Positions 7,042 to 40,698 of a stretch of DNA of 63,462 bases are shown here, piece by piece. The stretch lies in assembly GCA_035765895.1 (NCBI GenBank), contig DASTWL010000019.1:1-63462 (forward strand), given 5' to 3'. The translations under genes and the position numbers were made by a program. Position 1 is the first letter of the stretch. Each line of letters opens with the position of its first letter. The stretch comes from Verrucomicrobiia bacterium. Its GTDB lineage: Bacteria; Verrucomicrobiota; Verrucomicrobiia; Limisphaerales; DSYF01. Under the pieces are notes generated by a model. It worked only from the letters and a program-made list of their open reading frames with translations. It was not told where the DNA came from and did not search any database.

Positions 7042-7093
7042 TTTCGCATTTGACGATTCCCCGGCGGGACTCACACTGGCGGCTTGCTGTTCG

Positions 7094-13078: not shown

Positions 13079-13086
13079 GGAACCTC

Positions 13087-23664: not shown

Positions 23665-24600
23665 TCAGCGCGCCGCGCCCGCGAGGCTTGGCGTCAAAAT
23701 GCCCAGCGTTTCGACCTGCCGAAACAGGCGGGCCTTTTGGTCCTCGCGCAGCTGACGCACGGGCGGACGCACCGGTCCGCAATCCACGCCCACCAGGCTC
23801 ATGAGCGCCTTGCCGGCCGGCAGCACGCCGTAGGGCAGCAGCACCTGGACGAGCTTCACCGATTGCATTTGCAGCGCCTGCGCCGTGATGTTGTCGCCCG
23901 CCTGGTGGGCGGCGATCAGCTTCGTGTAAAGTGGGGCGGCATAATTGTAGGTGCTGCCCACGGCACCGTGCACGCCCAAGGCCAGCGCGCCGAGCAGCAT
24001 TTCATCCGTGCCAAAAAGAATGTTGAACTGGCCGTCGTCCGCCTCGAGGCATTCCTGCAACGCCATGAGATTCGAACTGGTGAACTTGATGCCGGCCAGG
24101 TTGGGGATGCGTTGCTTGCCGGCGCGCAAAAATTCGCCCAGCGCCACGTTCACCCCGGTCAACGCGGGGATGTCGTAAAAATAAAAGGGCAGCTCGGGTG
24201 CGGCGGCGGCGACGGGCGCGAGAAAATCAATCAGATCCTCGGTGGCGGCGGGCTTGAAGTAGCAGGGCGCCATCGCCGAAATGGCATCCGCTCCAATTTC
24301 GCGGGCCTGGGCCGCCAGGGTGCGGGCGTCTTCCTGGCAGTTGTGGCCGACGTGCACGATCAATTTGAGCTTCGCGCGGTCCCGGACCTCCTGCCACCGC
24401 CGGGCCACGCTCATCCGTTCCGCCACCGTCAACGAGTGGGACTCGCCCGTGCTCCCGCAAATGAACGCGCCGGCGACCGGGCTGGCCGCAAGGTGCGCGG
24501 CCTGGCGTTCGATGGCCGCCAGGTTGATCCGGCCATCGGCGTGCATGGGCGTGTGCGTCGCCGCCACCAGACCCGTCAGGAACCGGGAATATCCGTTCAT
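23665..24600 (-). CDS. nanA: N-acetylneuraminate lyase
   Basis: The 311-residue class I aldolase cleaves N-acetylneuraminate to N-acetylmannosamine and pyruvate. It is of normal length. Landmarks are ICGSTGESHSL (GxxGE motif), FYFYDIPALTGV (the catalytic tyrosine region), and GIKFTSSN with the Schiff-base Lys172. The open frame extends 13 codons upstream, but ATG 24600 begins NGYSRFLTGLVAA, the usual start for the family. It faces the regulator gene head to head across 83 bases and starts the catabolic side of the sialic acid locus. The product side (kinase, NagA/NagB) is not in this window. Confidence 0.93.
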   Translation of the reverse strand: MNGYSRFLTGLVAATHTPMHADGRINLAAIERQAAHLAASPVAGAFICGSTGESHSLTVAERMSVARRWQEVRDRAKLKLIVHVGHNCQEDARTLAAQAREIGADAISAMAPCYFKPAATEDLIDFLAPVAAAAPELPFYFYDIPALTGVNVALGEFLRAGKQRIPNLAGIKFTSSNLMALQECLEADDGQFNILFGTDEMLLGALALGVHGAVGSTYNYAAPLYTKLIAAHQAGDNITAQALQMQSVKLVQVLLPYGVLPAGKALMSLVGVDCGPVRPPVRQLREDQKARLFRQVETLGILTPSLAGAAR

Positions 24601-24683: not shown

Positions 24684-25802
24684 ATGGTTCCGCATTCGTC
24701 CGCCCGCGAAGATCTGATTCCCAAACGCTCGTCGCTCGTGGCCCAGACGGTGGCCATCCTGCGCAACCACCTGCGCTCCGGCGTCTGGAAGGAGTTTCTG
24801 CCCGGCGAGCACGATCTCTGCGAACGCCTCCAGATCAGCCGCGTCACCTTGCGCGCGGCCCTGGACCAGCTGCAACGCGAAAAGTGGATCAAGGCGGGGC
24901 AGGGGAAGCGCCGTCAAATCATCGCCCGCCACATTCCCCGGCCCGCGCGGTCGCACAGCAACGTGGTCGTTTTGTTGTCCCCCATGTCCATCCTCACGCT
25001 GCCCACGAGCGTGTTGTTCTGGGTGGACGCGTTGCGGGAACATCTTGCCGAGGCCGGCTACCGGCTGGAGTTTCACACCAGCCAGGCCTGTTACAGCGAG
25101 CATCCCGAACGCGCGATTGACGCGATGGCACAGCAGCTCAACGCCGCGGCGTGGGTGCTGTATCTTTCCACGGAGGCCATGCAACGCGTCTTCTCCGGCC
25201 GGGGACTGCCCGGCGTCATCGCCGGCTCGCCGCATCCGGGCGTCGAGCTGTCTTCGGTGGACATTGACTATGCGGCGACGTGCCGGCACGCGGCCGGCCT
25301 GCTCGCGGCGCGCGGCCGCAGGCGGATCGCGCTGCTGATGCCCCGCAGCGGCCAGGCCGGCAATCTGCAAAGTGAACGCGGCTTTCTGGAGGCGGGTGAA
25401 AGCCTGCGCGCCGCGGGCGTGGAAACACTGATCGTGCACCACGACGGAACACCTGAAGGCGTCTGCCGCCGGTTGGACGCCCTGTTGGAGGCGGGGAAAC
25501 CTGTGGATGGCCTGCTCATCGCCAAACCGGCGCACGTGGTCACTGCAGTGTCGCATTTGCTGCGGCGCGGTGTGAAAATCCCGCAGCAGGTGGCGCTCGT
25601 CTCGCGCGACAACGACCCTTTCCTCGAAAGCCTGGTGCCCGCAGTGGCGCGTTACGAACGAAACCCGACGCTCTTCGCCCGCAAGGTGCTGCGGCTCGTG
25701 CTGGATCTGGTCCGGGAAGGTGTCCGGCCGCGCCACAACTATCGGCTCATGCCCACGTTGGTGTCCGGTGAAACGCTCGGCCCCAAGGCCGGTCCGGCGT
25801 AG
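24684..25802 (+). CDS. GntR/LacI-type transcriptional regulator (AraR-like architecture), likely sialic acid regulator
   Basis: The 372-residue protein has a GntR-family winged helix at residues 18-88 (LRNHLRSGVWKEFLPGEHDL, then ISRVTLRAALDQLQREKWI) joined to a periplasmic-binding-protein-like effector domain (VVVLLSPMSILTLP; VDIDYAATCRHAAGLLAARG; HLLRRGVKIPQQVALVSRDN). The same fold combination is found in AraR of Bacillus. Position, divergent from nanA and directly upstream of the hexosaminidase, sialidase and esterase genes on its own strand, suggests it senses sialic acid or ManNAc/GlcNAc and represses both directions. The effector is inference. Confidence 0.85.
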   Translation: MVPHSSAREDLIPKRSSLVAQTVAILRNHLRSGVWKEFLPGEHDLCERLQISRVTLRAALDQLQREKWIKAGQGKRRQIIARHIPRPARSHSNVVVLLSPMSILTLPTSVLFWVDALREHLAEAGYRLEFHTSQACYSEHPERAIDAMAQQLNAAAWVLYLSTEAMQRVFSGRGLPGVIAGSPHPGVELSSVDIDYAATCRHAAGLLAARGRRRIALLMPRSGQAGNLQSERGFLEAGESLRAAGVETLIVHHDGTPEGVCRRLDALLEAGKPVDGLLIAKPAHVVTAVSHLLRRGVKIPQQVALVSRDNDPFLESLVPAVARYERNPTLFARKVLRLVLDLVREGVRPRHNYRLMPTLVSGETLGPKAGPA

Positions 25803-25875
25803 CGCCAGCCCTGTCTCAGCAACAAACAAGTCATTTTCGCTAGAGGCGGAACTCGAAGACGCTACCTTGGCGAGC

Positions 25876-27888
25876 ATGAAATTCATCGCGCCACGCGGCC
25901 TCGACGGCATTACAGCAGGCCTGGCTTTGGCGCTGGCGCTGGTCACGGCAGGCGCCGTTCCCGCGCTGCTTCCCGCGCCAGCCTCGGTGCAATGGCGGGA
26001 TGAAAACTTCAACGCCGCCCGGTTCACCATCAGGGCTCCGGCGGAAGCGGGCTTTGCCGCCCGGGAACTGGAGCAGTTCCTCGCCCAACTCGGCGGCCAG
26101 CGGAACGAACACGGCGGGCGGATCGTTTTGCAACTGGGCGGCACCGGAAACGCATCGCCGGAAAGCTACTCGCTCACGGTGACCGCTCACGAGGTCACCG
26201 TGACGGCGCGCGCGGCGGCCGGGTTGCTATATGGCGTGCAGACGCTCCGGCAACTGGCCACGGCGCAAGATGGGCGGCCCGTCATCGCCGGCTGTCGCAT
26301 CAGCGACGCACCGGCGTTCGCCTGGCGCGGTTTCATGCACGACGTGGGGCGGAACTTTCAGGACATCGCATTGCTCAAGCGTTTCGTGGACGTCATGGCG
26401 CGTTACAAAATGAACGTGTTTCACTTTCACCTCGCCGACAATCCGGCCTGGCGTGTCGAATGCCGCGTGCATCCCGAGTTGAATGACCCGAAGTTCACGC
26501 CCGTCACGCGCAACCCGGGAAAGTTCTACACCTACGTCGAACTGAACGACTTCATCGCCTACTGCCGCGAACGTGGCATCCGCGTCGTGCCCGAACTCGA
26601 CATGCCCGGCCACAGCGAATACTTCAAACGCGCCTTTGGCGTGGACATGCAGGACGAGCGCGGCATGCAGATTCTCGCCGACTGCCTGAACGAGTTCATG
26701 GACCACGTGGACACGCCGGAACTGCACATCGGCTCCGATGAGGTAGCCATCCGGAACAAGGATTTCCTGCCGCGTATGACGGCACTCATCCGCCAACACG
26801 GCCGGCAAATCATCGTGTGGCGTCCGGGACACCTGCCCGACGGCAAGGTCATCACGCAGCTCTGGTCCGCCGGCGGGCGGCCCAACGGCCCGCTGCCCGG
26901 CGTTCCGGCGGTCGATTCGCGAAACGACTATGTGAATCACATGGACCCGTTCGATGGTCCGTGCCGCATCTTGAACCTTGCCACCTGCGACCAGGCGGCG
27001 GGTGATGCGTTTGCGCTGGGCGGCATCCTTTGCCACTGGCCGGATGTCGCGGCGGGTGAGCCGATGAACATTTACCGGCAAAGCCCGGTCATGCCCGCGC
27101 TGCTGGCGGCGGCGGAGCGTTACTGGTGCGGTCACACGCCGGAACAGCCGAAGTTCTGGGGGCGCCTGCCGGACTTTGGCACGGCGGAGTTCGCGCGCTA
27201 TGCGGACTTCGAGGCGCGGATGATCGAGCAGCGCAACCGCTTCTTCGCCGGCTGGCCGTTTCCGTATGTGAAGCAAACCGACCTGGTGTGGAAACTCATC
27301 GGGCCGTTCGATCACCGGGGCGACGTGAATGCCGTTTTTCCCGTTGAGCAGGAATTACGTGACGAATACGTCGTGGATGGCCGGACCAATCGCTGGTTGG
27401 AAGCGCGGGGCGCGACGATTCACTTCCATCACTTTTGGTATGACGGCTGGCTGCCGAAGGCGAAGTCCGGCACCGCTTACGCGCTGACGTATGTGTGGTC
27501 GCCGCGCGCACAGACGGTTGGTTTCTGGATTGGCTTCAATGGTCCGTCGCGCTCCGACCGGCGCAACGGCGCGAATCCCACCCAGGGTGAGTGGAGCACG
27601 ACCGGGTCACGGATCTGGATCAACGATGCTGAAATTCCCGCGCCGAAATGGAGGCAGCCCGGCGTCATCCAATCGCCCAACGAAACACCGTTTGTGGACG
27701 AGGATTATTTCTATCGCGAACCAACATCGGTGGCGCTGAAGCAGGGTTGGAACAAGCTTCTCGTCAAGGCGCCCCGCAGCGAGAAGACCTGGAAGTGGAT
27801 GTTCACCTGCGTGCCGGTCGCAGTGAATGGCAACGCCGTGCGCGAAGTCGGAGGACTGCGCTTTGCCACCCAGCCGGAAAAGTTTTGA
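25876..27888 (+). CDS. GH20 beta-N-acetylhexosaminidase
   Basis: The 670-residue protein has an N-terminal hydrophobic stretch, then a GH20b alpha/beta domain, then the catalytic barrel with FAWRGFMHDVGRNF, FHFHLADNPAWRVE, VPELDMPGHSEYF, and the catalytic pair Asp288-Glu289 in ELHIGSDEVAI. These enzymes remove terminal GlcNAc/GalNAc by substrate-assisted catalysis. The usual HxGxDE sequence is HIGSDE here, within family variation. A C-terminal beta domain of about 150 residues (VGFWIGFNGPSRSDRR; WMFTCVP) is of the jelly-roll type. It is the first degradative gene after the regulator (73 bases). Confidence 0.9.
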   Translation: MKFIAPRGLDGITAGLALALALVTAGAVPALLPAPASVQWRDENFNAARFTIRAPAEAGFAARELEQFLAQLGGQRNEHGGRIVLQLGGTGNASPESYSLTVTAHEVTVTARAAAGLLYGVQTLRQLATAQDGRPVIAGCRISDAPAFAWRGFMHDVGRNFQDIALLKRFVDVMARYKMNVFHFHLADNPAWRVECRVHPELNDPKFTPVTRNPGKFYTYVELNDFIAYCRERGIRVVPELDMPGHSEYFKRAFGVDMQDERGMQILADCLNEFMDHVDTPELHIGSDEVAIRNKDFLPRMTALIRQHGRQIIVWRPGHLPDGKVITQLWSAGGRPNGPLPGVPAVDSRNDYVNHMDPFDGPCRILNLATCDQAAGDAFALGGILCHWPDVAAGEPMNIYRQSPVMPALLAAAERYWCGHTPEQPKFWGRLPDFGTAEFARYADFEARMIEQRNRFFAGWPFPYVKQTDLVWKLIGPFDHRGDVNAVFPVEQELRDEYVVDGRTNRWLEARGATIHFHHFWYDGWLPKAKSGTAYALTYVWSPRAQTVGFWIGFNGPSRSDRRNGANPTQGEWSTTGSRIWINDAEIPAPKWRQPGVIQSPNETPFVDEDYFYREPTSVALKQGWNKLLVKAPRSEKTWKWMFTCVPVAVNGNAVREVGGLRFATQPEKF

Positions 27889-28015
27889 GCAAATCCGAAC
27901 GAGCCATTATTCCGGTGAAATTGACCAAACACACATCCCGCTGGATTGAAGGCGAAACGGTCTGCTTTTGGGTCTGGCCCCAGAAGAACACAGCCAGCTG
28001 GGAACTCGAAAAATA

Positions 28016-29806
28016 ATGAAAAGCATCATTATTGCCGCATTTTATTCTGTGGCGTTGATGGCCGTGGCTGAGACGCCGAAAACTCATACGCCGCCGCCTG
28101 AATTCAAGGAAACCGCCGCCGAGCACGACGCGCGAATGCAATGGTTTCGCGACGCGCATTTCGGGATGTTCATCCATTGGGGCTTGTATTCGCAACTCGC
28201 CGGCGAGTGGCAGGACAAAACCATCACCGGCGGCGCCGAGTGGATTCAGAATTACCTGAACATCCCCAGCTCGCAATACAGCACGCTGACCAACCAGTTC
28301 AATCCGGTGAAGTTCAACGCCGATTCCTGGGCCGGGCTCATGGAGCGCGCCGGCGTGAAATACATCGCCATTACCACCAAGCATCACGATGGATTTTGCA
28401 TGTGGCCGACGAAGCAAAACCGCGACTGGAACATCAGCGTCACGCCGTTCCCGCGCGACCCGCTCAAGGAACTTTCAGAAGCCTGCAACCGCCACAACGT
28501 GCGTTTTGGCATCTATCATTCGGTGATGGACTGGCATCATCCCGACTGGCCGGGGAAGAGCTTCAACGACCAACGGCAAGGAACGCCCGACAAGGCACGG
28601 TTCAAGGCTTATCTTTACGCCGAGTTGAAGGAGCTTTTCACGGACTACGGGCCGATTGGCATTGTATGGTATGACGGGACCTGGGATCGCAAGGCTTGGA
28701 CGTCGCAGGATGGCAAGGAACTCGAAGACTACACGCGCTCGCTCCAGCCGAGCGTCATCCTCGACAACCGCTCCGGCTGGGTGCCGCCGCAGCGCAAGCT
28801 CGGCTTTGCCGTCAAAAATGACTACGGCTACACCGCTGCCGGCGACTACATTTCACCCGAGGGCGAAGTGCCGCCGACGGGCATGCCGGGCATTGACTGG
28901 GAAACGTGCCAGACGATGCAGTTGCCGAACAACTGGGGCTACAACCGGCTCGTTGGCTTCCGCCCGTTCAAGGATTTGCTTCAGCAACTCGTGGACGTGA
29001 CGAGCAAAGGTGGCAACATGCTGCTCAACATCGGACCGGACGCCGAAGGCGAAATCCTGCCGCAGGCGCGGCAGTGCTTGGAAAAATTCGGCGACTGGAT
29101 GAAACTCAATGCCGAATCCATCCACGGCACGCGCGCCTCGCCGTTTGCGGAATTGCCATTTAACGGCCGATGCACGCAAAAGCCCGGCGTGCTTTACCTG
29201 CACGTTTTCGCCTGGCCGCAGAACAGGAAACTTGCCGTGCCGGCCCGGAACAAAGTCATCCGCGCTTATCTTCTGGCCGACGCCAGACGCGCGGCGTTGA
29301 AGACGACCCGCTCGCCCTACGGCATTGAAATCAACCTGCCCGAAGCCGCGCCCGACCCGATTGATGCTGTCCTGGCGGTGGAAATCGAAGGAGCGCCGCA
29401 AGTCATCCCGTCGCCGGAAAAATTGTCACTGGGCAAACCCGTGGAAGTCTCGAGCTTTTGGGCAGGCCGCGAAGAGGAGTTGAACAAGGATCACATTACC
29501 GACGGAAAGCTGCCAACGATTTGGGCGGCGGAAGAAAAAGCTCGTTCCGCCTCGGTGACTGTTGACCTGCAAAATGAATGTGAAGTCGGCGGGGCGATGT
29601 TGAGCGACGCACCGTATGGGCGAACGCAGGCGTTTGACGTGGAGGCGCAGGTGAACGGTGGGTGGAAGAAGGTCGCGTCCGGCACGACCATCGGCAGCGA
29701 ACTGCGACTAAACTTTGCCCCGGTGAAGGCACGTTATTTCCGGCTCAACATCCGGCAGGCCAGTGATACGCCAGTGGTGGCGGAGTTTCAATTGTTCGCC
29801 TATTAA
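28016..29806 (+). CDS. GH29 alpha-L-fucosidase, second copy
   Basis: The 596-residue secreted enzyme (signal MKSIIIAAFYSVALMAVAE) shows RDAHFGMFIHWGLYSQLAGE, IAITTKHHDGFCMWPTK, FGIYHSVMDWHHPDW, and GIVWYDGTWD with the nucleophile Asp220. SKGGNMLLNIGPDAEG closes the barrel. The C-terminus holds a beta-sandwich and an F5/8-type-C-like domain (VEVSSFWAG; YFRLNIRQA; VAEFQLFAY). It represents the classical GH29-A type, unlike the shorter enzyme at 11621. It is followed after 17 bases by the sialidase, in line with removal of fucose that shields sialylated termini. Confidence 0.92.
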   Translation: MKSIIIAAFYSVALMAVAETPKTHTPPPEFKETAAEHDARMQWFRDAHFGMFIHWGLYSQLAGEWQDKTITGGAEWIQNYLNIPSSQYSTLTNQFNPVKFNADSWAGLMERAGVKYIAITTKHHDGFCMWPTKQNRDWNISVTPFPRDPLKELSEACNRHNVRFGIYHSVMDWHHPDWPGKSFNDQRQGTPDKARFKAYLYAELKELFTDYGPIGIVWYDGTWDRKAWTSQDGKELEDYTRSLQPSVILDNRSGWVPPQRKLGFAVKNDYGYTAAGDYISPEGEVPPTGMPGIDWETCQTMQLPNNWGYNRLVGFRPFKDLLQQLVDVTSKGGNMLLNIGPDAEGEILPQARQCLEKFGDWMKLNAESIHGTRASPFAELPFNGRCTQKPGVLYLHVFAWPQNRKLAVPARNKVIRAYLLADARRAALKTTRSPYGIEINLPEAAPDPIDAVLAVEIEGAPQVIPSPEKLSLGKPVEVSSFWAGREEELNKDHITDGKLPTIWAAEEKARSASVTVDLQNECEVGGAMLSDAPYGRTQAFDVEAQVNGGWKKVASGTTIGSELRLNFAPVKARYFRLNIRQASDTPVVAEFQLFAY

Positions 29807-29823: not shown

Positions 29824-31014
29824 ATGAACCCCCTTCGCTTTATCCAAAGAAATCTCGGCGGCATCATTTGTTTGCTGCTCGTCTCTGGCTGTTTCGCGAA
29901 CGAACCTCAGCTCTCCGACGTTTTTATCGCTGGCACGGACCAGTTCAAATCCATTCGCATTCCCTCTGTGGTCGTGACCAGGCTGGGCACCGTGCTGGCC
30001 ATCGCCGAGGGCCGGGCGCAGCACGCCGACCAGGCGAACAACAAGCTCATCCTCAAGCGCAGCACGGATGGCGGCAAAACCTGGGGCGCGCAACAGGTCA
30101 TCGCCGACGACGGCGCGAACTGCCTCAATAATCCCTGCTCCGTCGTGGACCGGAACACCGGCCGCGTCATCGTGATGTATCAATCCTATCCGGCCAACCA
30201 CAGCGAGCGGGATGGTTCGATCAAGCCCGGTTTGGCCGGGCCGGACATCGTGCGCAATTACGTCGTGACCTCCGCCGATGACGGCGTGACATGGTCGCCG
30301 CCGCTCGATGTAACGCGCACGACGAAGACGCCCGAGCGCGTCACGATTCTCGCGAGCGGGCCGGGCATTGGCATTCAATTGACGCGTGGCCCGCATCCGG
30401 GACGCATCCTCATCCCGTTCAATGAAGGGCCGTTTAACCAATGGATTGTGCTGGCCGTTTACAGCGATGACGGCGGGAAGAACTGGAAACGAGGTGAGCC
30501 CGCCCCCGGCTGCCGGGTGCCGAACGGCAAGGGCGGGGAAATCAGCCTCGTGAACGAAGTCCAGATGGTCGAACTCGTCGATGGCTCCGTGATGCTCAAC
30601 AGCCGCAAGTGGGGCGGCAAGGCGCTCCGCAAAACCGCCACGAGCCATGATGGCGGTGTAACGTGGTCGAAGATCGAGGAGGATCCTGCGTTGCGCGACC
30701 CCGGCTGCATGGGGTCCATCTTCCGCTACACCTTTCCTGGGAACGGCAATAAGAGCCGCATCCTTTACTCCGGTCCGGATAGTTCGAAGCGCGAGAATGG
30801 CACCGTTTACTTGAGTTATGACGAAGGCAAAACCTGGCCGGTGAAGAAGGTGCTGTTCCCCGGAAGTTTTGCTTACAGCGTTTTGACCGCGCTGCCGGAC
30901 GGCACGCTTGGCTGCCTCTTCGAGACGGACGGCGCCAACCGCATCGTTTTCGCGCGCTTCACCCTGGACTGGTTGACGGACGGGAAAGACTCGCCGCCCG
31001 CCGCCAAACAGTGA
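29824..31014 (+). CDS. GH33 exo-sialidase, lipoprotein
   Basis: The 396-residue protein has a lipoprotein signal (CLLLVSGC, lipobox VSGC) so it is probably membrane-anchored. GH33 marks are the FRIP-like SIRIP motif with Arg45 and five Asp boxes: RSTDGGKTW, SADDGVTW, YSDDGGKNW, SHDGGVTW and LSYDEGKTW. Further conserved residues are the asparagine/aspartate pocket around EGRAQHADQANN and the arginine in RKWGG. It releases terminal sialic acid from glycoconjugates. It has no added carbohydrate-binding domain, in contrast to the large esterase-sialidase at 33335. Confidence 0.93.
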   Translation: MNPLRFIQRNLGGIICLLLVSGCFANEPQLSDVFIAGTDQFKSIRIPSVVVTRLGTVLAIAEGRAQHADQANNKLILKRSTDGGKTWGAQQVIADDGANCLNNPCSVVDRNTGRVIVMYQSYPANHSERDGSIKPGLAGPDIVRNYVVTSADDGVTWSPPLDVTRTTKTPERVTILASGPGIGIQLTRGPHPGRILIPFNEGPFNQWIVLAVYSDDGGKNWKRGEPAPGCRVPNGKGGEISLVNEVQMVELVDGSVMLNSRKWGGKALRKTATSHDGGVTWSKIEEDPALRDPGCMGSIFRYTFPGNGNKSRILYSGPDSSKRENGTVYLSYDEGKTWPVKKVLFPGSFAYSVLTALPDGTLGCLFETDGANRIVFARFTLDWLTDGKDSPPAAKQ

Positions 31015-31029
31015 ATCGCTCTTGACCGT

Positions 31030-31683
31030 GTGAACGCCGACATCCAAGCCGCCGCGCAAATTGTCTGGGATTATCACCGGCTCGGCCACGTGCTGGAGCC
31101 GGCGGATCTCCTCTTCGTGCTCGGCAGCCACGACCTGCGCGTGGCCGAACATGCGGCGGATTTGTTCCACCGCGGACTCGCACCGCTGGTGGTGCTGTCC
31201 GGCGGGTTCGGCGTGCGTCTGGTCAGTCCGTGGACGAAGTCCGAGGCGGAAATGTTTGCGGAGGTGATGCAGCACCGCGGGGTGCCGGCGACGGCGTTGC
31301 TGCTGGAACCGCGTTCGACGAACACGGGTGAGAATGTCCGGTTCACGCGCGAACTGCTGGCCGCCCGGGGCCTCGCGGTTCAGTCGGTCATTGCGGTGCA
31401 AAAGCCCTACATGGAGCGGCGGACGTTCGCCACGATTCGTCAACAGTGGTCGGAGGTCGCGCTGCGCGTCTCCTCACCACCGCTCGATTTCGAGGCCTAC
31501 TGCGATTCCAACATTCCCATCCGCGACATCATTGAATTCATGGTCGGCGATCTGCAACGCATCATGGAATACCCGCAACTCGGCTTCATGATTCCGCAGG
31601 AAGTGCCGGAGCGCGTCGTGGCGGCTTACGAAACGCTCGTCATCGCCGGGTTCACCCGCCATTTGATTCCGCGCTCAAAATGA
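31030..31683 (+). CDS. YdcF/SanA-family (DUF218) protein
   Basis: The 217-residue protein starts with GTG. DUF218 features are LLFVLGSHDLRVAEHAADL, then PLVVLSGGFG, then EPRSTNTGENVRF, then AVQKPYMERRTF. The family has a Rossmann-like fold; YdcF of E. coli binds S-adenosylmethionine and SanA/ElyC affect the envelope, but no enzymatic role is settled. There is no signal peptide, so it should be cytoplasmic. It sits between the sialidase and the O-acetylesterase and overlaps the latter by four bases (ATGA), so it is cotranscribed with sialic acid genes. A role in sialate metabolism is only suggested by this. Confidence 0.82.
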   Translation: MNADIQAAAQIVWDYHRLGHVLEPADLLFVLGSHDLRVAEHAADLFHRGLAPLVVLSGGFGVRLVSPWTKSEAEMFAEVMQHRGVPATALLLEPRSTNTGENVRFTRELLAARGLAVQSVIAVQKPYMERRTFATIRQQWSEVALRVSSPPLDFEAYCDSNIPIRDIIEFMVGDLQRIMEYPQLGFMIPQEVPERVVAAYETLVIAGFTRHLIPRSK

Positions 31684-33227
31684 AACGAATCATTTCGGTT
31701 GTATTCGCATTGGTCTGGAGTGCTTTCAGCGCACCCGGGGTGGGCCTCAGTCTCGCTCCGTGGTTTACGGACAACCTGGTGTTGCAGCGCGACATACCGG
31801 TGCCGGTGTGGGGAACAGCCAGCCCGGGCGAACGCATCATCGTTACCTTCGCCGGCCAGCGGAAAACGACTCTGGCGGATCCTTCGGGGTGCTGGCAGGT
31901 GGTGCTTGACCCGTTGCCGGCGAGTTTTGCGGCGCGCACGTTGACCGCCGAAGCGACAGACACACTGCGTTTGACGAACATTTTGGTGGGCGAAGTCTGG
32001 CTGGCCGCGGGCCAGTCGAACATGGAGTTTCCGTTGTCCCGCGAGGCACACGCCAGCGCTGAACTGCCCGTGGCCGCGAATGCCAGCTTGCGCCTGCTTA
32101 ATCTTTCTTTTGCCGGGCAGTATTTATACGCGAAGCCGTTTGGTGCGAATGAGCTTTCGCGCATGACACCGGAGCAATTCTACTCCGGCACTTGGTGCGA
32201 GTGCTCGCCCGCTTCGGCAAAGGATTTCTCCGCCATTGCCTACTTTTTCGGCCATGAATTGCAGCCGGAACTCCACGTGCCGCTCGGCATCATTCATCTG
32301 GCCGTGGGTGGCAGTCCGACCGAAGCGTGGATTCGCCGCGCGGCGCTCGCGGCCGATCCGGAACTCGGCGTGATGACCCGCGGCAACTGGCTCACCAATG
32401 CCACACTGGATGACTGGTGCCGCGAGCGCGGTCACCAGAATTTCGATGCGCCGCTCCAGTCGGGTCTCGCGGTTCCCGGCGATGATCTGGGGCCGAATCA
32501 TCCCTTCAAACCGGGCTTCCTTTGGGAGGCCGGACCAGCGCGGCTGCGGCCGTTCGCGATTCGCGGCGTGCTTTGGTATCAGGGCGAGAGCAATTCGCTC
32601 GAACCGCGGCGCGTGGCCCAGCATGAGAAACTCTTTCCGCTGCTCGTCCGCGACTGGCGTGCGCAATGGGGGCAGTTGCGACTGCCGTTCCTTTACTGCC
32701 AGCTTTCCAGCATCGGCACCAACGGCGGCTACAAAGCGTCGTGCTGGCCTGATTTCCGTGACCAGCAGCGGCGGTTCCTGGGAGCCATCCCTGACACGGC
32801 GATGGCCGTGACTAGCGACCTCGGCCATCCCACCGATGTGCATCCGCGCAACAAGCGCGACGTCGGACATCGCCTCGCGTTGGCGGCGCTGGCGCTGGTT
32901 TACGGACGCGAAGTTGAATTCAGCGGCCCGTTGATCCAGAGCGTCGAGCGCCGCGGCGACCAGGTGCTGGTCCGCTTTCAACATGCGAACGGACTGAAAA
33001 CCACCGACGGAGAGCCGCCAAATGACTTCGAGGTCGCCGGTGAGGACGGGCAGTTCTTCCCCGCGGTCGCCGCCATCCAGGGCGGCGTGGTGGTGCTGAC
33101 GTGTCCACGAGTTTCACGCGCGGTTGAAGCCCGTTATGCGTGGCAACCGTTTCCCACGCCGGTGCAAAACCTCGTCAATGCCGCTGGTCTTCCCGCCTCC
33201 ACCTTTCGCGAAGCAGTGAGCCGCTGA
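31680..33227 (+). CDS. Sialate O-acetylesterase (SGNH family)
   Basis: The 515-residue secreted protein (signal MKRIISVVFALVWSAFSAPG) has an N-terminal beta domain and an SGNH hydrolase split as in sialate 9-O-acetylesterases: AAGQSNMEF with the nucleophile Ser113, HLAVGGSPTEAW, LWYQGESNS, and the catalytic Asp386/His388 in DVHPRNK. It removes O-acetyl groups from sialic acids, a prerequisite for many sialidases and for NanA. It begins within the end of the YdcF-like gene (overlap ATGA) and precedes the fused esterase-sialidase, giving the locus two esterases. Confidence 0.9.
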   Translation: MKRIISVVFALVWSAFSAPGVGLSLAPWFTDNLVLQRDIPVPVWGTASPGERIIVTFAGQRKTTLADPSGCWQVVLDPLPASFAARTLTAEATDTLRLTNILVGEVWLAAGQSNMEFPLSREAHASAELPVAANASLRLLNLSFAGQYLYAKPFGANELSRMTPEQFYSGTWCECSPASAKDFSAIAYFFGHELQPELHVPLGIIHLAVGGSPTEAWIRRAALAADPELGVMTRGNWLTNATLDDWCRERGHQNFDAPLQSGLAVPGDDLGPNHPFKPGFLWEAGPARLRPFAIRGVLWYQGESNSLEPRRVAQHEKLFPLLVRDWRAQWGQLRLPFLYCQLSSIGTNGGYKASCWPDFRDQQRRFLGAIPDTAMAVTSDLGHPTDVHPRNKRDVGHRLALAALALVYGREVEFSGPLIQSVERRGDQVLVRFQHANGLKTTDGEPPNDFEVAGEDGQFFPAVAAIQGGVVVLTCPRVSRAVEARYAWQPFPTPVQNLVNAAGLPASTFREAVSR

Positions 33228-33334: not shown

Positions 33335-36300
33335 ATGCAACCTCGCTTCCTGATGATCCTCGGCGCGCTCAGCTTGGGATGGGGTGCACCGGCATTGGGT
33401 GGACAGACGCTGCGACTGTTCGTGCTCACGGGCCAGTCAAACAGCCTTGGCACACCGGCCACCACCGTCACCAACATGGTTTTGGCGCGCCCGTCGAATC
33501 ATCCCGTGGATTCGCGGGTGCCGTTTTTCTGGGACAACACGGCGGATGGCACGGCCGCCGGTGACGCGGCGCTGGGGGCATCCGCAGGCTGGACGAACAT
33601 CAGCCCGCAGACCGGCGGCTACTACCCGGGCAGTGCGGAGCATTGGGGCCCGGAGGCCGGCTTTGCCCGGATGCTTTGGGACGCGGGCTATCACGACTTC
33701 GGCATCGTGAAGGCCAGCCGCGGCGGCGGCGGGAATTCCTACTGGGACAAGACCAACGCCGATCATCACATGTATGACAAGGTGGTGAACACCGTCAGCA
33801 ACGCCGTGCTCGTCCTGCCGCCGGGCTACACGAATTTCCAGGTGGTCGGACTGTTGTATGTGCAAGGCGAGAGCAACGATGCCACGGAAGCCGACCAGGC
33901 CGACACCCGTTTTGCCGCGTTGCTGGAAAACCTGCGCGCCGACCTGCCGCACGCCGCCGGCATGAACGCGGTGTTCGGCGAGATTGGCAGCGACGCCACG
34001 GGCAACCGCCTGCTCACCACGCAGCGCCAGATGAATCTCGCCGCTGCGCGGGCTGACATTGGGTTCGCCCGTTCGACAGGATTGCCGATTCAAAACGTGG
34101 ACGGGCTGAACGTGCATTACGCCGCCGATTCGCTGATTGTGTTGGGCGAACGCATGGCCGCGGAAGCCATGCGCATGGGTGTCCTGCCGGAACAGCCGCT
34201 GCCGGAGCTCGATTCACTCCACGCCTGGTATCAGGGCGATCACGGGGTGGTGCCGACGACGAACGCCACGGTGGCCCGTTGGAGCGATCTCGCCAGCGGA
34301 ACCACGGCGCGCGATCTGACCCAGATTGTCGGCACGCCGGCGCTGGTTGCGGGCCGGTTCCTCGCCGCGCCAAAGCAGAACTTTATTCGCTTCAATGGCA
34401 CGAATCAGGCCGCCTGGGCCACGTTCGCAAGCTTCGGTTCGCTGAACGGTCCCCGCACCCTGGCGTTCGCCCTGCGCGTGAACGATGCGAACGACGGTTT
34501 TCTCTTCGACGGCTCAACCGGCAGCGGCATGACCCGCGCCCAGGTGCGTTCCAACTTCTGGCAGGCCGGCGTGCAGATTGGTCCCGCGGCCACGGGGGCC
34601 AACCCGGACACGCCCACAGCACCACGGGTAACAGGCAAATGGCAGTTTCACGAGTTCAGTTACGTTCCGACCAACGGCGCCACGCGCGTGCAGCACTGGA
34701 TCAACGGCACGAACGTGGCCGACTTTCTGGACCCCGAAACCAACGGCCTCGGCGGACTCATCCTTGGCGCCAACGTGCAGGCGCAACGCTTCCTCTCCGT
34801 GGACCTCGGCGAAGTGCTGGTTTATCAGACCGAACTCTCGCCGGCCGAACGCGCCCTTTTGCTCACACATCTGCAGGCGCGCTGGAATTCCCCTGCGGAG
34901 GCGCCCGCCGCCGCGGGTGTATATGCGTGGTATGCCGGCGATGACGGGCTGGCCACGCTGGCGGACAACTACACCATCAACACCTGGGCCAACCTGGGCA
35001 CTGCCGCAACCAACACGACGTTCACGGCGGCCAGGCGCAACCTGAGTCATGTCACCAGCGCGCCGCAAAAAGTCTGGCTCCGCTTTACCGACGGCACGCC
35101 CGCGGCCGCGGTGGCGTTTGACGGCAACGACGCCTTGTGGGCGGCGCAATCGGATTTCGGAACGCTGAATGGCGACCGCACATTGATGGCGATGGTGCGC
35201 GTCGTCAATGCGGTGCCGCAGGGGTTCCTCTTCGACAGCAGTTCCTACACGGTCGGCTTGACCCGCGCGCAGGTGCATGATGGCAACTGGCAGGTGAGCG
35301 CTTATGGCGCGGGAGCCAGTGGCGCGGCCGGAGCGGCGGGGCGGGTGACGGCGTCCGCCACGACCAACGTCTGGCAGGTGCACGCGTTTGTGGTGACGAC
35401 GAACGATCTGCGCTTCCGGCATTTTATCGACGGCGTGGAAGGCGCCGCCGTGACCAATGCCGTGCCGGGCGCGCTGGGCGGTTTGATTGTTGGCGCGAAT
35501 GCGTCGGCGGGGCTCGGCATCCGTGCCGAGGTGGCGGAACTGATGGTTTTCAATGCGGCCCTGGACGACGGCACGCGCACCAATCTGGAGAGTTACCTGG
35601 CGGCCAAGTGGGCGGGCGTGACGGCTGATCCCGACGCGCCCACGCCACCACCGCAGCCCAATTTCGTCCGCGTCTTCACCGGCGGCGGCGACGGTTACAC
35701 GTGCTTTCGCATTCCCGTGCTGGTCACGACGGCAAAGGGCACGGTGATCGCCATGTCCGACGGGCGCATTGGCAGTTGCGGTGACATCCCGACGCCGCTG
35801 GATCTGGTCTTCAAACGCAGCTTTGACAACGGCGCCACGTGGGGACCTTTGCAAGTCGTGGCGGACTACGGCAGCAACCCCAACGACGTGGACACTTATC
35901 CGGCCTACGGCATGACGAACATTGCGCGGGTTTCGGCGGGCGATGCGGCATTGCTGCTCGACCGCAGCAACGGCCGGGTCTGGGCCTTGTATGACAACGG
36001 CGGCGTGACCAACGGTGCGCGAAAAATCAAACTTGAACAGCGTTACAGCGACGACGACGGCGCAACGTGGTCGGCGGTGGTGGATCTCGAAGCCGCGAAT
36101 CCAGGCCTCCGGCCGGCCGGGGGCGAGTTTCTCACCGGGCCGGGCAATGGCATCCAAATGACCGAAGGTCCGCATGCCGGACGATTGATCTTCCCGGTGT
36201 ATCACTATGCCAGCCCCTCGGCGTCCGGCGTCATCTACAGCGACGATCACGGCGCGACCTGGCAGCGCGGCGCGCTCGTCACCGGCGGCGGTGAGATTCA

Positions 36301-37129
36301 GGTCTGCGAAACGGCGGGCGGGGGACTGCTGGCCTCGATGCGGGACAACAATTTTGCGTGGAACGGCGTGCGGACATTCGCGCGCAGCACCGATGGCGGG
36401 GCGACGTGGAGCGCACCCTACACCAACACCGTGGTGCCGCCCACGATGCCCGACCCGGCGTGTCAGGGGAATGTTTACCGGCTGACCACCACCAACAACA
36501 GCAACGCCAGCCGGCTCGTGCACGTCAATGCCGCCAGTTCGTCCAGCCGCATGAACCTGACCTTGCGCATCAGTTACGACGAAGGCCAGTCGTGGCCCGT
36601 CAGCAACCAGATTTATGCCGCGGGCGCGGCGTATTCGTCCGTTACAAAGCTCGCCACGGGTGACATCGGCGTGTTGTTCGAGAAGGACCCCTACGGCAAT
36701 CTGGATTACGCCCGCCGGTCCATCGCCGAGGTGACGGCCGGCGCGGACGCATTGCCGGCGTATGACGTGTGGGCAGGAGAGCACTTCACGCCGGCGCAAT
36801 TGTCGGATCCCGCGGTGTCCGGCCCGGAAGCCGATCCCGACGGTGACGGGCGCAACAACTTTGAAGAATTCGTTGCCGGCACGGATCCGCTTTCGGCGGC
36901 GAGTTTTCTCCAATTGAAGGTCTCACCCACAGGAACGGGCGCCGAACTTGGCTTCGCGGGCGTGTCCAACAAGAGTTACACGATTCAATACCGGGACGCA
37001 TTGGCAGGTGATGCGTGGCAGCGGCTGGCCAATGTAAACACCCTGGCCAGCAACAGCACGATCACGCTGTCCGTCGGGGTGACGAACGACAAACGGTTCT
37101 TTCGTCTCGCCACGCCACAGTTACCTTGA
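33335..37129 (+). CDS. Bimodular SGNH esterase - LamG x2 - GH33 sialidase fusion
   Basis: The 1264-residue secreted protein joins two activities. Residues 1-280 are an SGNH esterase related to sialate O-acetylesterases (LTGQSNSLGTP with Ser35; YVQGESND; Asp256 and His261 in DGLNVHYAADS). Residues about 290-525 and 527-765 are two concanavalin/LamG-like domains (AWYQGDHGV and AWYAGDDGL). From about 775 to 1130 is a GH33 sialidase with YTCFRIP (Arg792) and Asp boxes RSFDNGATW, YSDDDGATW, YSDDHGATW, RSTDGGATW and ISYDEGQSW. A calcium-loop-like segment, DPDGDGRNNFEEFVAGTDP, and a C-terminal beta domain follow. An upstream in-frame ATG at 33302 lacks a signal peptide; ATG 33335 starts it directly. 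Deacetylation and desialylation in one chain is the inferred role. Confidence 0.88.
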   Translation: MQPRFLMILGALSLGWGAPALGGQTLRLFVLTGQSNSLGTPATTVTNMVLARPSNHPVDSRVPFFWDNTADGTAAGDAALGASAGWTNISPQTGGYYPGSAEHWGPEAGFARMLWDAGYHDFGIVKASRGGGGNSYWDKTNADHHMYDKVVNTVSNAVLVLPPGYTNFQVVGLLYVQGESNDATEADQADTRFAALLENLRADLPHAAGMNAVFGEIGSDATGNRLLTTQRQMNLAAARADIGFARSTGLPIQNVDGLNVHYAADSLIVLGERMAAEAMRMGVLPEQPLPELDSLHAWYQGDHGVVPTTNATVARWSDLASGTTARDLTQIVGTPALVAGRFLAAPKQNFIRFNGTNQAAWATFASFGSLNGPRTLAFALRVNDANDGFLFDGSTGSGMTRAQVRSNFWQAGVQIGPAATGANPDTPTAPRVTGKWQFHEFSYVPTNGATRVQHWINGTNVADFLDPETNGLGGLILGANVQAQRFLSVDLGEVLVYQTELSPAERALLLTHLQARWNSPAEAPAAAGVYAWYAGDDGLATLADNYTINTWANLGTAATNTTFTAARRNLSHVTSAPQKVWLRFTDGTPAAAVAFDGNDALWAAQSDFGTLNGDRTLMAMVRVVNAVPQGFLFDSSSYTVGLTRAQVHDGNWQVSAYGAGASGAAGAAGRVTASATTNVWQVHAFVVTTNDLRFRHFIDGVEGAAVTNAVPGALGGLIVGANASAGLGIRAEVAELMVFNAALDDGTRTNLESYLAAKWAGVTADPDAPTPPPQPNFVRVFTGGGDGYTCFRIPVLVTTAKGTVIAMSDGRIGSCGDIPTPLDLVFKRSFDNGATWGPLQVVADYGSNPNDVDTYPAYGMTNIARVSAGDAALLLDRSNGRVWALYDNGGVTNGARKIKLEQRYSDDDGATWSAVVDLEAANPGLRPAGGEFLTGPGNGIQMTEGPHAGRLIFPVYHYASPSASGVIYSDDHGATWQRGALVTGGGEIQVCETAGGGLLASMRDNNFAWNGVRTFARSTDGGATWSAPYTNTVVPPTMPDPACQGNVYRLTTTNNSNASRLVHVNAASSSSRMNLTLRISYDEGQSWPVSNQIYAAGAAYSSVTKLATGDIGVLFEKDPYGNLDYARRSIAEVTAGADALPAYDVWAGEHFTPAQLSDPAVSGPEADPDGDGRNNFEEFVAGTDPLSAASFLQLKVSPTGTGAELGFAGVSNKSYTIQYRDALAGDAWQRLANVNTLASNSTITLSVGVTNDKRFFRLATPQLP

Positions 37130-37133
37130 ACGC

Positions 37134-38315
37134 ATGGCCCCCGAGCGCCTCAACGAACTCGCCCGTTTCTACTGCACCGCGCTGATCGAAGATTGCGCGA
37201 AGTTCTGGTTCCCGCGGAGTCTTGATCGCAAGCACGGCGGCTATCTCCATTGCCTCGACCGCGACGGCTCGGTGCTCGACACCGACAAATCGGTCTGGGC
37301 GCAGGGCCGCATGGCGTGGATGCTCGCGACGCTTTACAACACCGTTGAACGGCGCGCGGAGTGGCTGGAATGGTCCAGGCTCGGCCTGGACTTCCTCGAT
37401 CATCACTGTTTCGACACCGATGGCCGGATGTTTTTCCACGTCACCCGCGAGGGAAAGCCCATCCGCAAACGGCGCTATGCCTTCAGCGAATCCTTTGCCG
37501 CCATCGCCCACGCGGCTTACACCAAGGCGACGGGCAATGCGCACTCCGCGCAACGGGCGCACGAGTTGTTCGACCGGTTCGTGGACTGGAATTTCACGCC
37601 GGGCAAAATGCCGCCCAAGTTCACCGAAGTGCGTCCGCTCATCGGCATGGGCCCGCGCATGATTACGATTGTCACCGCGCAGGAACTCCGCGCCAATCTC
37701 GGTGACGATCCGAAACTGACCCGATGGATTGACCGTTGCATCGGGGAAATTGAGCGCTGGTTCGTGAAGCCGGACATTCAATGCGTCATGGAAGCCGTCG
37801 CGCCGGATGGCTCGATTGTCGATCACTTCGACGGGCGCACGCTGAATCCCGGCCACGCCATCGAAGGCGCGTGGTTCATTCTGCACGAGGGCCGGCATCG
37901 GCAGGATTCCCGCCTCATCAAACTCGGTTGCCAGATGCTCGACTGGATGTGGGCGCGCGGCTGGGACCGCGAGTTCGGCGGCATTTTCTACTTCCGCGAT
38001 GTCTTCGACAAACCGGTGCAGGAATACTGGCACGATATGAAGTTCTGGTGGCCGCACGACGAGGCGATCATCGCCACGCTGCTGGCGTATCAGCTCACGC
38101 GCGATCCCAAATACGCTGAGTGGCACCGGCTCGTGCATGACTGGAGCTTTGAACACTTCGGCGATCCGCAGCACGGCGAGTGGTTTGGCTACCTGCACCG
38201 CGACGGTCGAGTTTCGGTTCCGTTGAAGGGCAATCTGTGGAAGAGCTTTTTCCATCATCCGCGTGCGCTGTGGTATTGCGCGCGGTTGTGCGAAGAGATG
38301 AACGAACCAACATGA
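37134..38315 (+). CDS. nanE: N-acylglucosamine 2-epimerase (AGE family), ManNAc-GlcNAc epimerase
   Basis: The 393-residue (alpha/alpha)6 protein follows the previous gene after 4 bases. AGE landmarks are DTDKSVWAQGRMAWML, RYAFSESFAAIAHA, NPGHAIEGAW with His241, and FFHHPRALWYCA with His375; these match the two catalytic histidines (248 and 382) of porcine renin-binding protein/AGE. It interconverts N-acetylmannosamine and N-acetylglucosamine and so handles the product of NanA. This is the route used in Bacteroides fragilis (NanL, NanE, NanT) and avoids ManNAc 6-phosphate. There is no signal peptide, so it is cytoplasmic. Confidence 0.9.
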   Translation: MAPERLNELARFYCTALIEDCAKFWFPRSLDRKHGGYLHCLDRDGSVLDTDKSVWAQGRMAWMLATLYNTVERRAEWLEWSRLGLDFLDHHCFDTDGRMFFHVTREGKPIRKRRYAFSESFAAIAHAAYTKATGNAHSAQRAHELFDRFVDWNFTPGKMPPKFTEVRPLIGMGPRMITIVTAQELRANLGDDPKLTRWIDRCIGEIERWFVKPDIQCVMEAVAPDGSIVDHFDGRTLNPGHAIEGAWFILHEGRHRQDSRLIKLGCQMLDWMWARGWDREFGGIFYFRDVFDKPVQEYWHDMKFWWPHDEAIIATLLAYQLTRDPKYAEWHRLVHDWSFEHFGDPQHGEWFGYLHRDGRVSVPLKGNLWKSFFHHPRALWYCARLCEEMNEPT

Positions 38316-39433
38316 ACGACCACAGAGCCCGCGCTTGCAGATGCGTTGCCGCCTTGCCGCCGCAGCGACGGGCACCGGCGCACGTCGGCCGCGGCTGGCT
38401 CTGGGCCGCCCTGATTTTTATGACCGCGAAACTTCTCGCTGCGGATGTCGCACTTGACTGGCAACAACTTCCCGTGCTGCCCGATCCGCTCGGCGTGGCC
38501 GGGGCGTTTGCGGGTGTCAGCGACGGCGCTCTTATCGTCGCCGGTGGCGCCAACTTTCCGGACAAACTGCCGTGGAACGGTGGTCGCAAAGTCTGGCACG
38601 ACGCGGTTTATGTTTTGGAACGGCCGCAGGGCGTGTGGCGCAGCGGCTTCAAACTCCCCAAGCCGCTCGGCTATGGCGTTTCGCTCACCACGCCCGACGG
38701 CGTGCTGTGCATTGGTGGCAGCGATGCCACGCAACACGTGCGCGATGTCTTTCTGCTGCAGTGGCACCATGACGAACTCAAGCATGAAGCCCTGGCGCCA
38801 CTGCCCGCGCCACTGGCAAACGCGTGCGGGGCGCTGGTCGGGCACACCGTTTATGTCGCGGGGGGCACCGCTTCGCCGGACGCCACAAACGCGTTGAACG
38901 TTTTCTGGTCGCTCGATCTTAAGGCGCGCGGCGCCTCGTGGGAGGAATTGCCAGCGTGGCCGGGCCCGGCGCGGATGTTGTCGGTGGCGGCGGCGCTCGG
39001 GGATTCGTTCTACGTGGTTGGCGGCACTGATCTGGCGCCGGATGCCGCGGGCAATCCCATGCGCACCTATCTGAAGGATGCCTACCGTTTCACGCCGGGC
39101 CAGGGCTGGCGGCGCATCGCGGATTTGCCGAATCCGGTCGTTGCGGCGCCGACGCCCGCGCCGGTGAGTTCGGGCACCCAGTTCCTCGTGATTGGCGGCG
39201 ACGATGGCAGCCTGGTTAACTTCACGCCGCGCTCCGAACATCCCGGTTTCCCAAAGCGCGTGCTGGCCTACGATGCTGCCCATGACACATGGTCGGTCGT
39301 GGGGGAAACACCCGCTTCGCGCGCCACCCTGCCCACGGCGCCGTGGCGGGGCGGCTTCGTGCTGCCGAGCGGCGAAGCGAAGCCCGGCGTGCGTTCGCCG
39401 CAAGTGTGGGTTGTCCGCCCACGGGGGATTTGA
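38312..39433 (+). CDS. nanM: Kelch-repeat sialic acid mutarotase (NanM-like, N-acetylneuraminate epimerase)
   Basis: The 373-residue protein overlaps the epimerase gene by four bases (ATGA). It has a membrane/signal segment (GWLWAALIFMTAKLLAA) after a short basic N-terminus. The body is a six-bladed kelch propeller of the cyclically permuted mutarotase type: ALIVAGGANFPDKLPW, KVWHDAVYVLE, GVLCIGGSDATQHV, TVYVAGGTASPDATN, DSFYVVGGTDLAP, and LVIGGDDGSL. NanM-type proteins convert the alpha anomer released by sialidase to the beta form in the periplasm before uptake. Gene order next to the importer fits that job. Confidence 0.88.
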   Translation: MNDHRARACRCVAALPPQRRAPAHVGRGWLWAALIFMTAKLLAADVALDWQQLPVLPDPLGVAGAFAGVSDGALIVAGGANFPDKLPWNGGRKVWHDAVYVLERPQGVWRSGFKLPKPLGYGVSLTTPDGVLCIGGSDATQHVRDVFLLQWHHDELKHEALAPLPAPLANACGALVGHTVYVAGGTASPDATNALNVFWSLDLKARGASWEELPAWPGPARMLSVAAALGDSFYVVGGTDLAPDAAGNPMRTYLKDAYRFTPGQGWRRIADLPNPVVAAPTPAPVSSGTQFLVIGGDDGSLVNFTPRSEHPGFPKRVLAYDAAHDTWSVVGETPASRATLPTAPWRGGFVLPSGEAKPGVRSPQVWVVRPRGI

Positions 39434-39447
39434 TTAACCTGCGCCGC

Positions 39448-40698
39448 GTGAATCCCGATTCCCGTCCCGGACGTAGTGCATGGGTGGCAGTGGCACTGCT
39501 TTTTCCCGTCGCCATGCTGAACTATTTGGACCGTCAGATTTTTTCGACCATGAAAAAATCCATGATGGCCGACATGCACAGCATCGCCACAGACGAACAG
39601 TTCGGCGCGTTGATGGGCATCTTCCTGATTGTCTATGGCTGCTTCAGTCCGATTGGCGGCTACCTGGCCGACCGCTTCAACCGGCGCTGGACCGTCATCG
39701 TCTCGCTGGGGGTGTGGTCATTGGTGACGTGGTTGACCGGGCACACCCACAACTACGACCAGATGTGGTGGGCGCGCGCGGCCATGGGCATCAGCGAGGC
39801 GTGTTACATCCCCGCCGCGCTCGCCTTGATCGCAGATTTTCACACCGGCCCGACGCGTTCCCGCGCGGTGGGCATTCATCAGGCGGGCATTTACACCGGC
39901 ATTGCACTGGGCGGCTTGGGCGGCTTCATTGCCGATTCGGCCTACGGCTGGCGGGCTGCGTTCAACTGGTTCGGGCTGGCGGGCGTGCTGTATGCCTTCG
40001 TGCTCGTGGCCTTCCTGCGCAATCCGGACAAACCGAAGGTGAATGTTGCACTGGGCGAAAAATCCCTGAGTCCGTGGGCGGCCGTGAAGTCCCTCCTTGG
40101 CCTCGGCTCCTTCATTCTGCTCGTGCTGTATTTCACGTTGCCCGCCTTGCCCGGCTGGCTGATGAAGAACTGGCTGCCCGCGATTTTGGCGGATACGTTC
40201 AAGCTGGGGCAGGGGACGGCTGGCCTCAACGCCACCTTGTGGATCACTTTTGCATCGCTGGTCGGCGTGCTGGCGGGCGGAGCGATTGCCGACCGCTGGA
40301 TGCGCGTCACGCCGCGCGGACGGATTTACACCAGCGCCTTGGGAATGGTGCTGATGATTCCGGCGCTGTTCGGCGTCGGCTACGCGCCGTCGCTGGCAGT
40401 GGCGATTGTCTTTCTGGTCATCTTCGGGCTCGGGTGGGGTTTTTTCGACTGCAACAACATGCCGATCCTCTGCCAGATCGCGCGGCCGGAATTGCGCGCC
40501 ACGGGCTATGGCCTGATGAATCTGGTCAGCATCACGGCCGGCGGCTGGTTCACCCAGAAAATCGGCGCCCTGCGCGATGCCGGGGTGGCGCCCGCGCTCA
40601 TCTTTGTGTTCTGCGCGCTGGCGGCCGCAGTGTCCGTGGCACTGGTCCTGTTCATCCGGCCGCGAACCATCGCGGAAGCGCAGTCCGGCGGCCGGTGA
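39448..40698 (+). CDS. MFS transporter, probable sialic acid importer (NanT-like role)
   Basis: The 416-residue protein has twelve predicted membrane spans. Motifs include the first-helix MLNYLDRQIFSTM, YLADRFNRRWTVI (MFS loop motif DRxxRR), and ADRWMRVTPRGRIY in the second half. Start is GTG 39448, 14 bases after the kelch gene; the longer frame upstream is a shadow of that gene. The subfamily looks spinster/anion-cation-symporter like and the sequence alone does not fix the substrate. Its position at the end of the epimerase, mutarotase and sialidase run makes a sialic acid importer the best inference. Confidence 0.82.
   Translation: MNPDSRPGRSAWVAVALLFPVAMLNYLDRQIFSTMKKSMMADMHSIATDEQFGALMGIFLIVYGCFSPIGGYLADRFNRRWTVIVSLGVWSLVTWLTGHTHNYDQMWWARAAMGISEACYIPAALALIADFHTGPTRSRAVGIHQAGIYTGIALGGLGGFIADSAYGWRAAFNWFGLAGVLYAFVLVAFLRNPDKPKVNVALGEKSLSPWAAVKSLLGLGSFILLVLYFTLPALPGWLMKNWLPAILADTFKLGQGTAGLNATLWITFASLVGVLAGGAIADRWMRVTPRGRIYTSALGMVLMIPALFGVGYAPSLAVAIVFLVIFGLGWGFFDCNNMPILCQIARPELRATGYGLMNLVSITAGGWFTQKIGALRDAGVAPALIFVFCALAAAVSVALVLFIRPRTIAEAQSGGR

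Follow-up and report, generated by a model that had tools for sequence, protein, structure and literature searches.

A predicted bifunctional esterase-sialidase in a Limisphaerales sialic acid utilization cluster, and the apparently recurrent pairing of esterase and sialidase modules in the PVC superphylum

The 63,462-nucleotide stretch of Verrucomicrobiia (Limisphaerales) DNA analysed here, referred to below as the window, encodes a single chain in which a SASA-type SGNH esterase domain, two LamG domains and a GH33 sialidase domain follow one another, within a cluster of genes for sialic acid utilization (Table 1). This protein is, with a probability of roughly 0.78, a secreted bifunctional enzyme of that cluster. 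The N-terminal SASA domain would strip O-acetyl esters from the sialic acids at glycan ends and so relieve their block on sialidases, the LamG domains would tether the enzyme to its glycan, GH33 on the C-terminal side would then free the sialic acid, and NanM, the MFS transporter, NanA and AGE would bring the released sugar to GlcNAc. The two domains most likely act in this way, with deacetylation of sialic acid, the predicted substrate, preceding cleavage by GH33, a reading well supported by their context.

Table 1. Coordinates of the window cluster, of the domains of the bimodular protein and of selected relatives (window positions unless a locus is named)
Feature	Coordinates	Strand	Remarks
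NanA-like N-acetylneuraminate lyase	23674..24591	-	60% identity with the G031 cluster's lyase
GntR/LacI-type regulator	24684..25802	+	
GH20 hexosaminidase	25720..27888	+	
GH29 alpha-L-fucosidase	27968..29806	+	
Second GH33 sialidase	29824..31014	+	single-domain
DUF218 protein	31030..31683	+	
SIAE-type carbohydrate/sialate O-acetylesterase	31680..33227	+	separate gene
Bimodular SASA-LamG-LamG-GH33-CTD protein	33335..37129	+	starts at ATG 33335 (1264 aa); the frame is already open at ATG 33302
Signal-peptide-like N terminus, MQPRFLMILGALSLGWGAPALGG	33335..33403	+	read from sequence
SASA/SGNH esterase domain	33410..34168	+	PF03629 match, model and fold matches, residue tally
First LamG/ConA-like domain	34214..34888	+	Pfam, own profiles, model
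Second LamG/ConA-like domain	34919..35614	+	Pfam, own profiles, model; missing in several orthologues
GH33 sialidase domain	35669..36736	+	five Asp boxes, Arg triad, Asp/Glu/Tyr; Pfam, PDB match, residue tally
C-terminal domain with TSP3-like stretch	36806..37108	+	common to many large proteins of the order
AGE, N-acylglucosamine 2-epimerase	37134..38315	+	
NanM, N-acetylneuraminate epimerase (mutarotase)	38180..39433	+	
MFS transporter, probable sialic acid importer	39289..40698	+	
G031 bimodular orthologue	L026 3594-7052 = L077 6596-10054	- (L026), + (L077)	GEAN in place of GQSN
Inner SASA with Gly at the catalytic Ser	L088 860-1086, L104 820-1045, L110 986-1206, L111 860-1085 (aa)		

The open frame codes for 1275 aa when read from its first ATG, and the second ATG, which opens the signal-peptide-like stretch, gives the 1264-aa numbering of the initial annotation; both numberings are used below. 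The order of SGNH esterase, two LamG domains and GH33 proposed in that annotation is borne out by Pfam matches, the catalytic residues and a model of the LamG region, and a TSP3-like stretch and C-terminal domain (residues 1169-1269) that it did not mention are also present. An artefactual origin of the frame was rejected, as ten genomes share it. PF03629 (SASA) matches residues 38-290 with an E-value of 1.2e-21 for the domain alone and a score of 77.8 bits, above the curated cut-off of 24.8. The SGNH set is complete, with S46, G141, N145, D267 and H272 in the 1275-aa frame (35, 130, 134, 256 and 261 in the shorter numbering); Ser35, Asp256 and His261 thus stand where they had been placed, and Asn134 and Glu179 accompany them.

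A model of the SASA domain (pLDDT 81) ranks closest in fold to the CE6-like protein 1zmb (Z 23.6) and the plant protein At4g34215 (2apj, Z 23.4), both of which we take to be filed under CE6, followed by SIAE (19.0) and NanS (17.9). The domain alone gave no match to PDB sequences at E 1, and with a profile 1zmb and 2apj were the sole matches with E < 0.01; these two were solved as single-domain proteins and are 16-21% identical to the window SASA domain. The SIAE-type/CE20 esterases (8f9o; 7kmm, 9ega, 9h4u) share the SGNH fold, PF03629 and the same kind of chemistry, but resemble the domain at the fold level only (Z about 19-20), with no sequence match for the PDB proteins in a single-sequence or profile search (SIAE); their true relative here is the gene immediately upstream of the bimodular gene. 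NanS, the 9-O-acetylesterase of E. coli (3pt5), likewise has the SGNH fold and belongs to a sialic acid pathway, but is a separate protein. Since CE6-type acetylesterases outrank SIAE and NanS, and unfused relatives occur beside sulfatases and GDSL esterases (see below), the modelled fold cannot settle the substrate of the SASA domain, and we infer its sialic acid specificity from the fusion and the gene neighbourhood.

Between SASA and GH33, Pfam detects Laminin_G_3 in two weak stretches (2.6e-6), and a 482-residue model (pLDDT 85) contains two concanavalin/LamG-type jelly rolls. These score Z 18-21 against ConA-like domains, among them the ones in trypanosomal sialidases, GH54 and AbnA, which confirms the two LamG-like domains of the initial annotation. 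BNR_2 matches residues 838-1123 (E 1.4e-26). Among solved structures, the GH33 part is best matched by the sialidase of Micromonospora viridifaciens (1eur, 3.8e-35), whose catalytic positions and Asp boxes align with it, but whose matched chain has neither an esterase nor a LamG domain. Arg792 is in place as claimed, the count of Asp boxes is indeed exactly five (829, 905, 969, 1018 and 1080 in the 1264-aa numbering), and the full GH33 set comprises R803, D828, E1003, R1014, R1083 and Y1111 of the 1275-aa frame. Judged by these residues, both active sites of the protein are complete. The suggestion that both reactions take place at one binding site finds no support, as the active sites lie in separate folds with the two LamG domains between them.

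The bimodular gene is flanked by the SIAE-type esterase gene and by AGE and NanM, within a nan cluster. The gene families of this cluster have established roles in the conversion of sialylated glycans to GlcNAc, and on those roles the cluster can be read as such a route. Its G+C content (63.3%) does not stand out from that of the window (61.9%). Elsewhere in the window, a 784-aa frame (6908-9262, +) joins a low molecular weight phosphatase, RpiB and serine hydroxymethyltransferase in an unusual triple fusion, and a 1433-aa protein (12907-17208, +) carries reprolysin-like, cadherin and PA14/GLEYA domains.

A search of 320 genomes of the order recovered orthologues in nine genomes besides the window's own, with SASA domains 66-71% identical and frames of 1054-1300 aa. 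Each of the nine chains runs SASA-LamG (one or two)-GH33, and eight continue into the C-terminal domain, while the ninth (L054), on a contig of 5.3 kb, is cut inside GH33; the architecture thus recurs in related genomes of the order. The sialic acid setting holds as well, with nan-type genes by seven of the nine orthologues: NanA, NanM and MFS genes are close by in five, the MFS gene beside the G031 cluster being a 243-aa fragment only, and AGE and GntR occur in the covered stretch of two. Nan-type genes are absent from the covered stretch of L057, and the L054 contig is too short to show any. The distribution is patchy, in that the nearest genomes (G001-G003; same genus, same family) are without the chain. 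In G008 the equivalent chain is without SASA, and the adjoining gene codes for LamG-GH33-SIAE. A LamG-GH33-SIAE chain, which unites the sialidase with the second esterase family, lies in a nan cluster at L025 7675-11070 (-).

The nucleophile Ser of the G031 orthologue is replaced by Ala (codon GCG) and its GH33 domain is kept, so this chain does not invariably need its esterase step. A SIAE gene is encoded elsewhere in that genome; both G031 and G094 have kept the fused chain with SIAE present only at another place in the genome. At approximately L027 5448-6055 (-), G024 retains fragments only, namely a SASA piece (residues 111-183) and, about 60 bases away, the C-terminal domain, which look like a decayed copy that has lost its middle.

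Relatives beyond the order were sought by a scan with the SASA alignment over one genome per species, using the motifs TGQSN[SA]LGT and LLY[LV]QGES[DN]; from this non-exhaustive scan 80 loci were kept, by record title overwhelmingly from Verrucomicrobiota, Planctomycetota, Lentisphaerae and Kiritimatiellae, the few MAGs titled Proteobacteria or Klebsiella being taken to be mislabelled bins. GH33 lies in the same chain in 38 of the 80 loci, elsewhere in the stretch in 12, and is absent from the fetched stretch in 30. With a background of roughly one match to GH33 in each genome of 4-5 Mb (some 42 matches in 40 genomes), it would be expected by chance in well under 1% of such stretches. By own profiles, the chains comprise SASA-LamG(-LamG)-GH33 (14), GH33-SASA-SIAE (7), SASA-GH33 (6), GH33-SASA (5), SASA-SASA-LamG-GH33 (4) and LamG-GH33-SASA (2). 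Pfam places GDSL esterase domains alongside SASA in several chains, including SASA-GDSL-(SASA)-GH33. Among cultured bacteria, fused chains occur in Haloferula sp. BvORR071 and in Haloferula rosea (L087), where the chain bears an extra lectin domain of the Vibrio-sialidase kind (PF09264, 5.7e-14). Luteolibacter marinus is a probable third holder, its stretch stopping before the GH33 region. Some unfused SASA relatives adjoin sulfatases and GDSL esterases; together with the 30 relatives without GH33, these led to the rejection of the idea that the family acts on sialic acid alone, and membership of the SASA family is therefore no proof of sialic acid specificity. Other fusions noted include sialidase with hexosaminidase (GH33-GH20; L084 2-3490, -, and L086 74-4015, +) and, in several PVC genomes, NanM mutarotase with a sodium:solute symporter (L025 404-3028, -; L087 1291-4164, -; L118 3095-5842, +; L139 8609-11191, +; L144 1520-4126, +).

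In the SASA tree, a quick tree with SH-aLRT support only, the window-type domains group together, and the fusion labels require 11 changes, of which branches with good support force several. The GH33 domains of the Limisphaerales type, to which the window protein belongs, fall far from those of the Verrucomicrobiales-type chains in the GH33 tree despite the same SASA-LamG-GH33 order. Mean GH33 identity is 36% between the two types and 68% within the window type, whereas their SASA parts are 57-62% identical. A single GH33 clade for both types was rejected with a p-AU of 1.3e-68, a nominal value as the groups were picked after viewing the first tree. A single ancient fusion behind all SASA-LamG-GH33 chains was rejected on the low GH33 identity and the rejected common clade. 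From the GH33 tree and the identities it follows that the SASA-LamG unit sits on two sialidase lineages, and the presence of different lineages under the same domain order argues that the esterase-sialidase pairing arose more than once. The GH33-SASA-SIAE chains represent a further pairing, in the opposite order.

Of the 29 SASA rows that lie N-terminal to GH33, 23 (the window protein and 22 others) retain the catalytic Ser, as do all 14 C-terminal rows. One row lacks this region, and the exceptions are G031 (Ala) and the inner SASA domains of the four SASA-SASA chains (Gly), in each of which the outer SASA keeps its Ser. Because this loss comes with a second intact SASA in the same chain, it argues that esterase activity matters, with the proviso that the four chains are related and may reflect one event. 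GH33 catalytic residues are retained in nearly all fused chains. That the N-terminal SASA domain now serves mainly as a non-catalytic module binding sialoglycans, as might be read from the five Ser-less domains with their Asn, Glu, Asp and His retained, is very improbable given how widely the Ser persists in both N- and C-terminal positions.

A more serious alternative is that the SASA domain removes acetyl groups from a different sugar of this glycan, be it GalNAc, Gal or GlcNAc, or from an acetylated polysaccharide of algal or bacterial origin, and was fused to GH33 only since both act on one composite glycan. The proximity of the fold to CE6-type acetylesterases, the sulfatase and GDSL neighbourhoods of unfused relatives and the separate SIAE already in the cluster all speak for it, but the partner that keeps recurring, in several independent fusions of differing order, is GH33, and most orthologues lie beside nan-type genes; the alternative is considered unlikely. 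The reading of the SASA domain as a sialate esterase can also be refined, tentatively, by a division of labour in which SASA and SIAE would split the acetyl positions (e.g. 9-O versus 4-O or 7-O), the cluster would strip multiply acetylated sialic acids and the fused SASA would handle the position that blocks this particular GH33. The two esterases of the window cluster, the tri-modular GH33-SASA-SIAE chains in seven loci and the SASA-GDSL-(SASA)-GH33 chains fit such a division; the sequence, however, gives no evidence on acetyl position, and G094 and G031 do without a SIAE gene beside the fused chain.

To our knowledge, the bacterial answers to the O-acetyl block described so far are separate esterases and one fused chain from the gut. 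Sialidases are blocked where sialic acid carries O-acetyl esters (PMC10298468). The fused chain is SiaBb1 of Bifidobacterium bifidum, which, in the accounts given by PMC10298468 and PMC7232152 (primary report: Ashida 2018, doi 10.1080/09168451.2018.1497944, as cited there), unites an SGNH domain with sialate-O-acetylesterase activity and GH33 in one extracellular chain and removes 9-O-acetyl groups, aiding the release of sialic acid from mucin, so that by these accounts a chain of this kind does act in the proposed manner in vitro. At the level of those accounts, the window protein shares with SiaBb1 the joining of an SGNH esterase and GH33, but SiaBb1 is a chain of about 189 kDa from a gut actinobacterium, while the window protein belongs to the PVC group and has paired LamG domains and the C-terminal domain of its order. 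The initial annotation knew of no description of this exact order; the principle of the fusion has been in print since 2018, which weakens that claim to novelty, while its scale and recurrence look new. No fused esterase-sialidase, and no SASA-GH33 protein of Planctomycetes or Verrucomicrobia, was found beyond SiaBb1 in the literature covered, which excludes most subscription journals; what looks new here is the different bacterial group, the paired LamG domains and the recurrent PVC-wide pairing.

On balance, it appears that sialidases of the PVC superphylum have repeatedly and independently taken in one to three esterase modules (SASA, GDSL or SIAE) in N-terminal, C-terminal or tri-modular arrangements, the inner Ser-less SASA domains being accompanied by a second intact SASA in the chain. 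Fused enzymes of this kind, forming a family among environmental bacteria, would help to release O-acetylated sialic acids and to map them, and the natural variants, in which the Ser is lost or domains are swapped, would test whether the fusion itself betters the reaction. It also hints at O-acetylated sialic acids as a food source beyond the gut and, if the repeated acquisition is true, O-acetyl removal would be a built-in step of environmental sialidase action.
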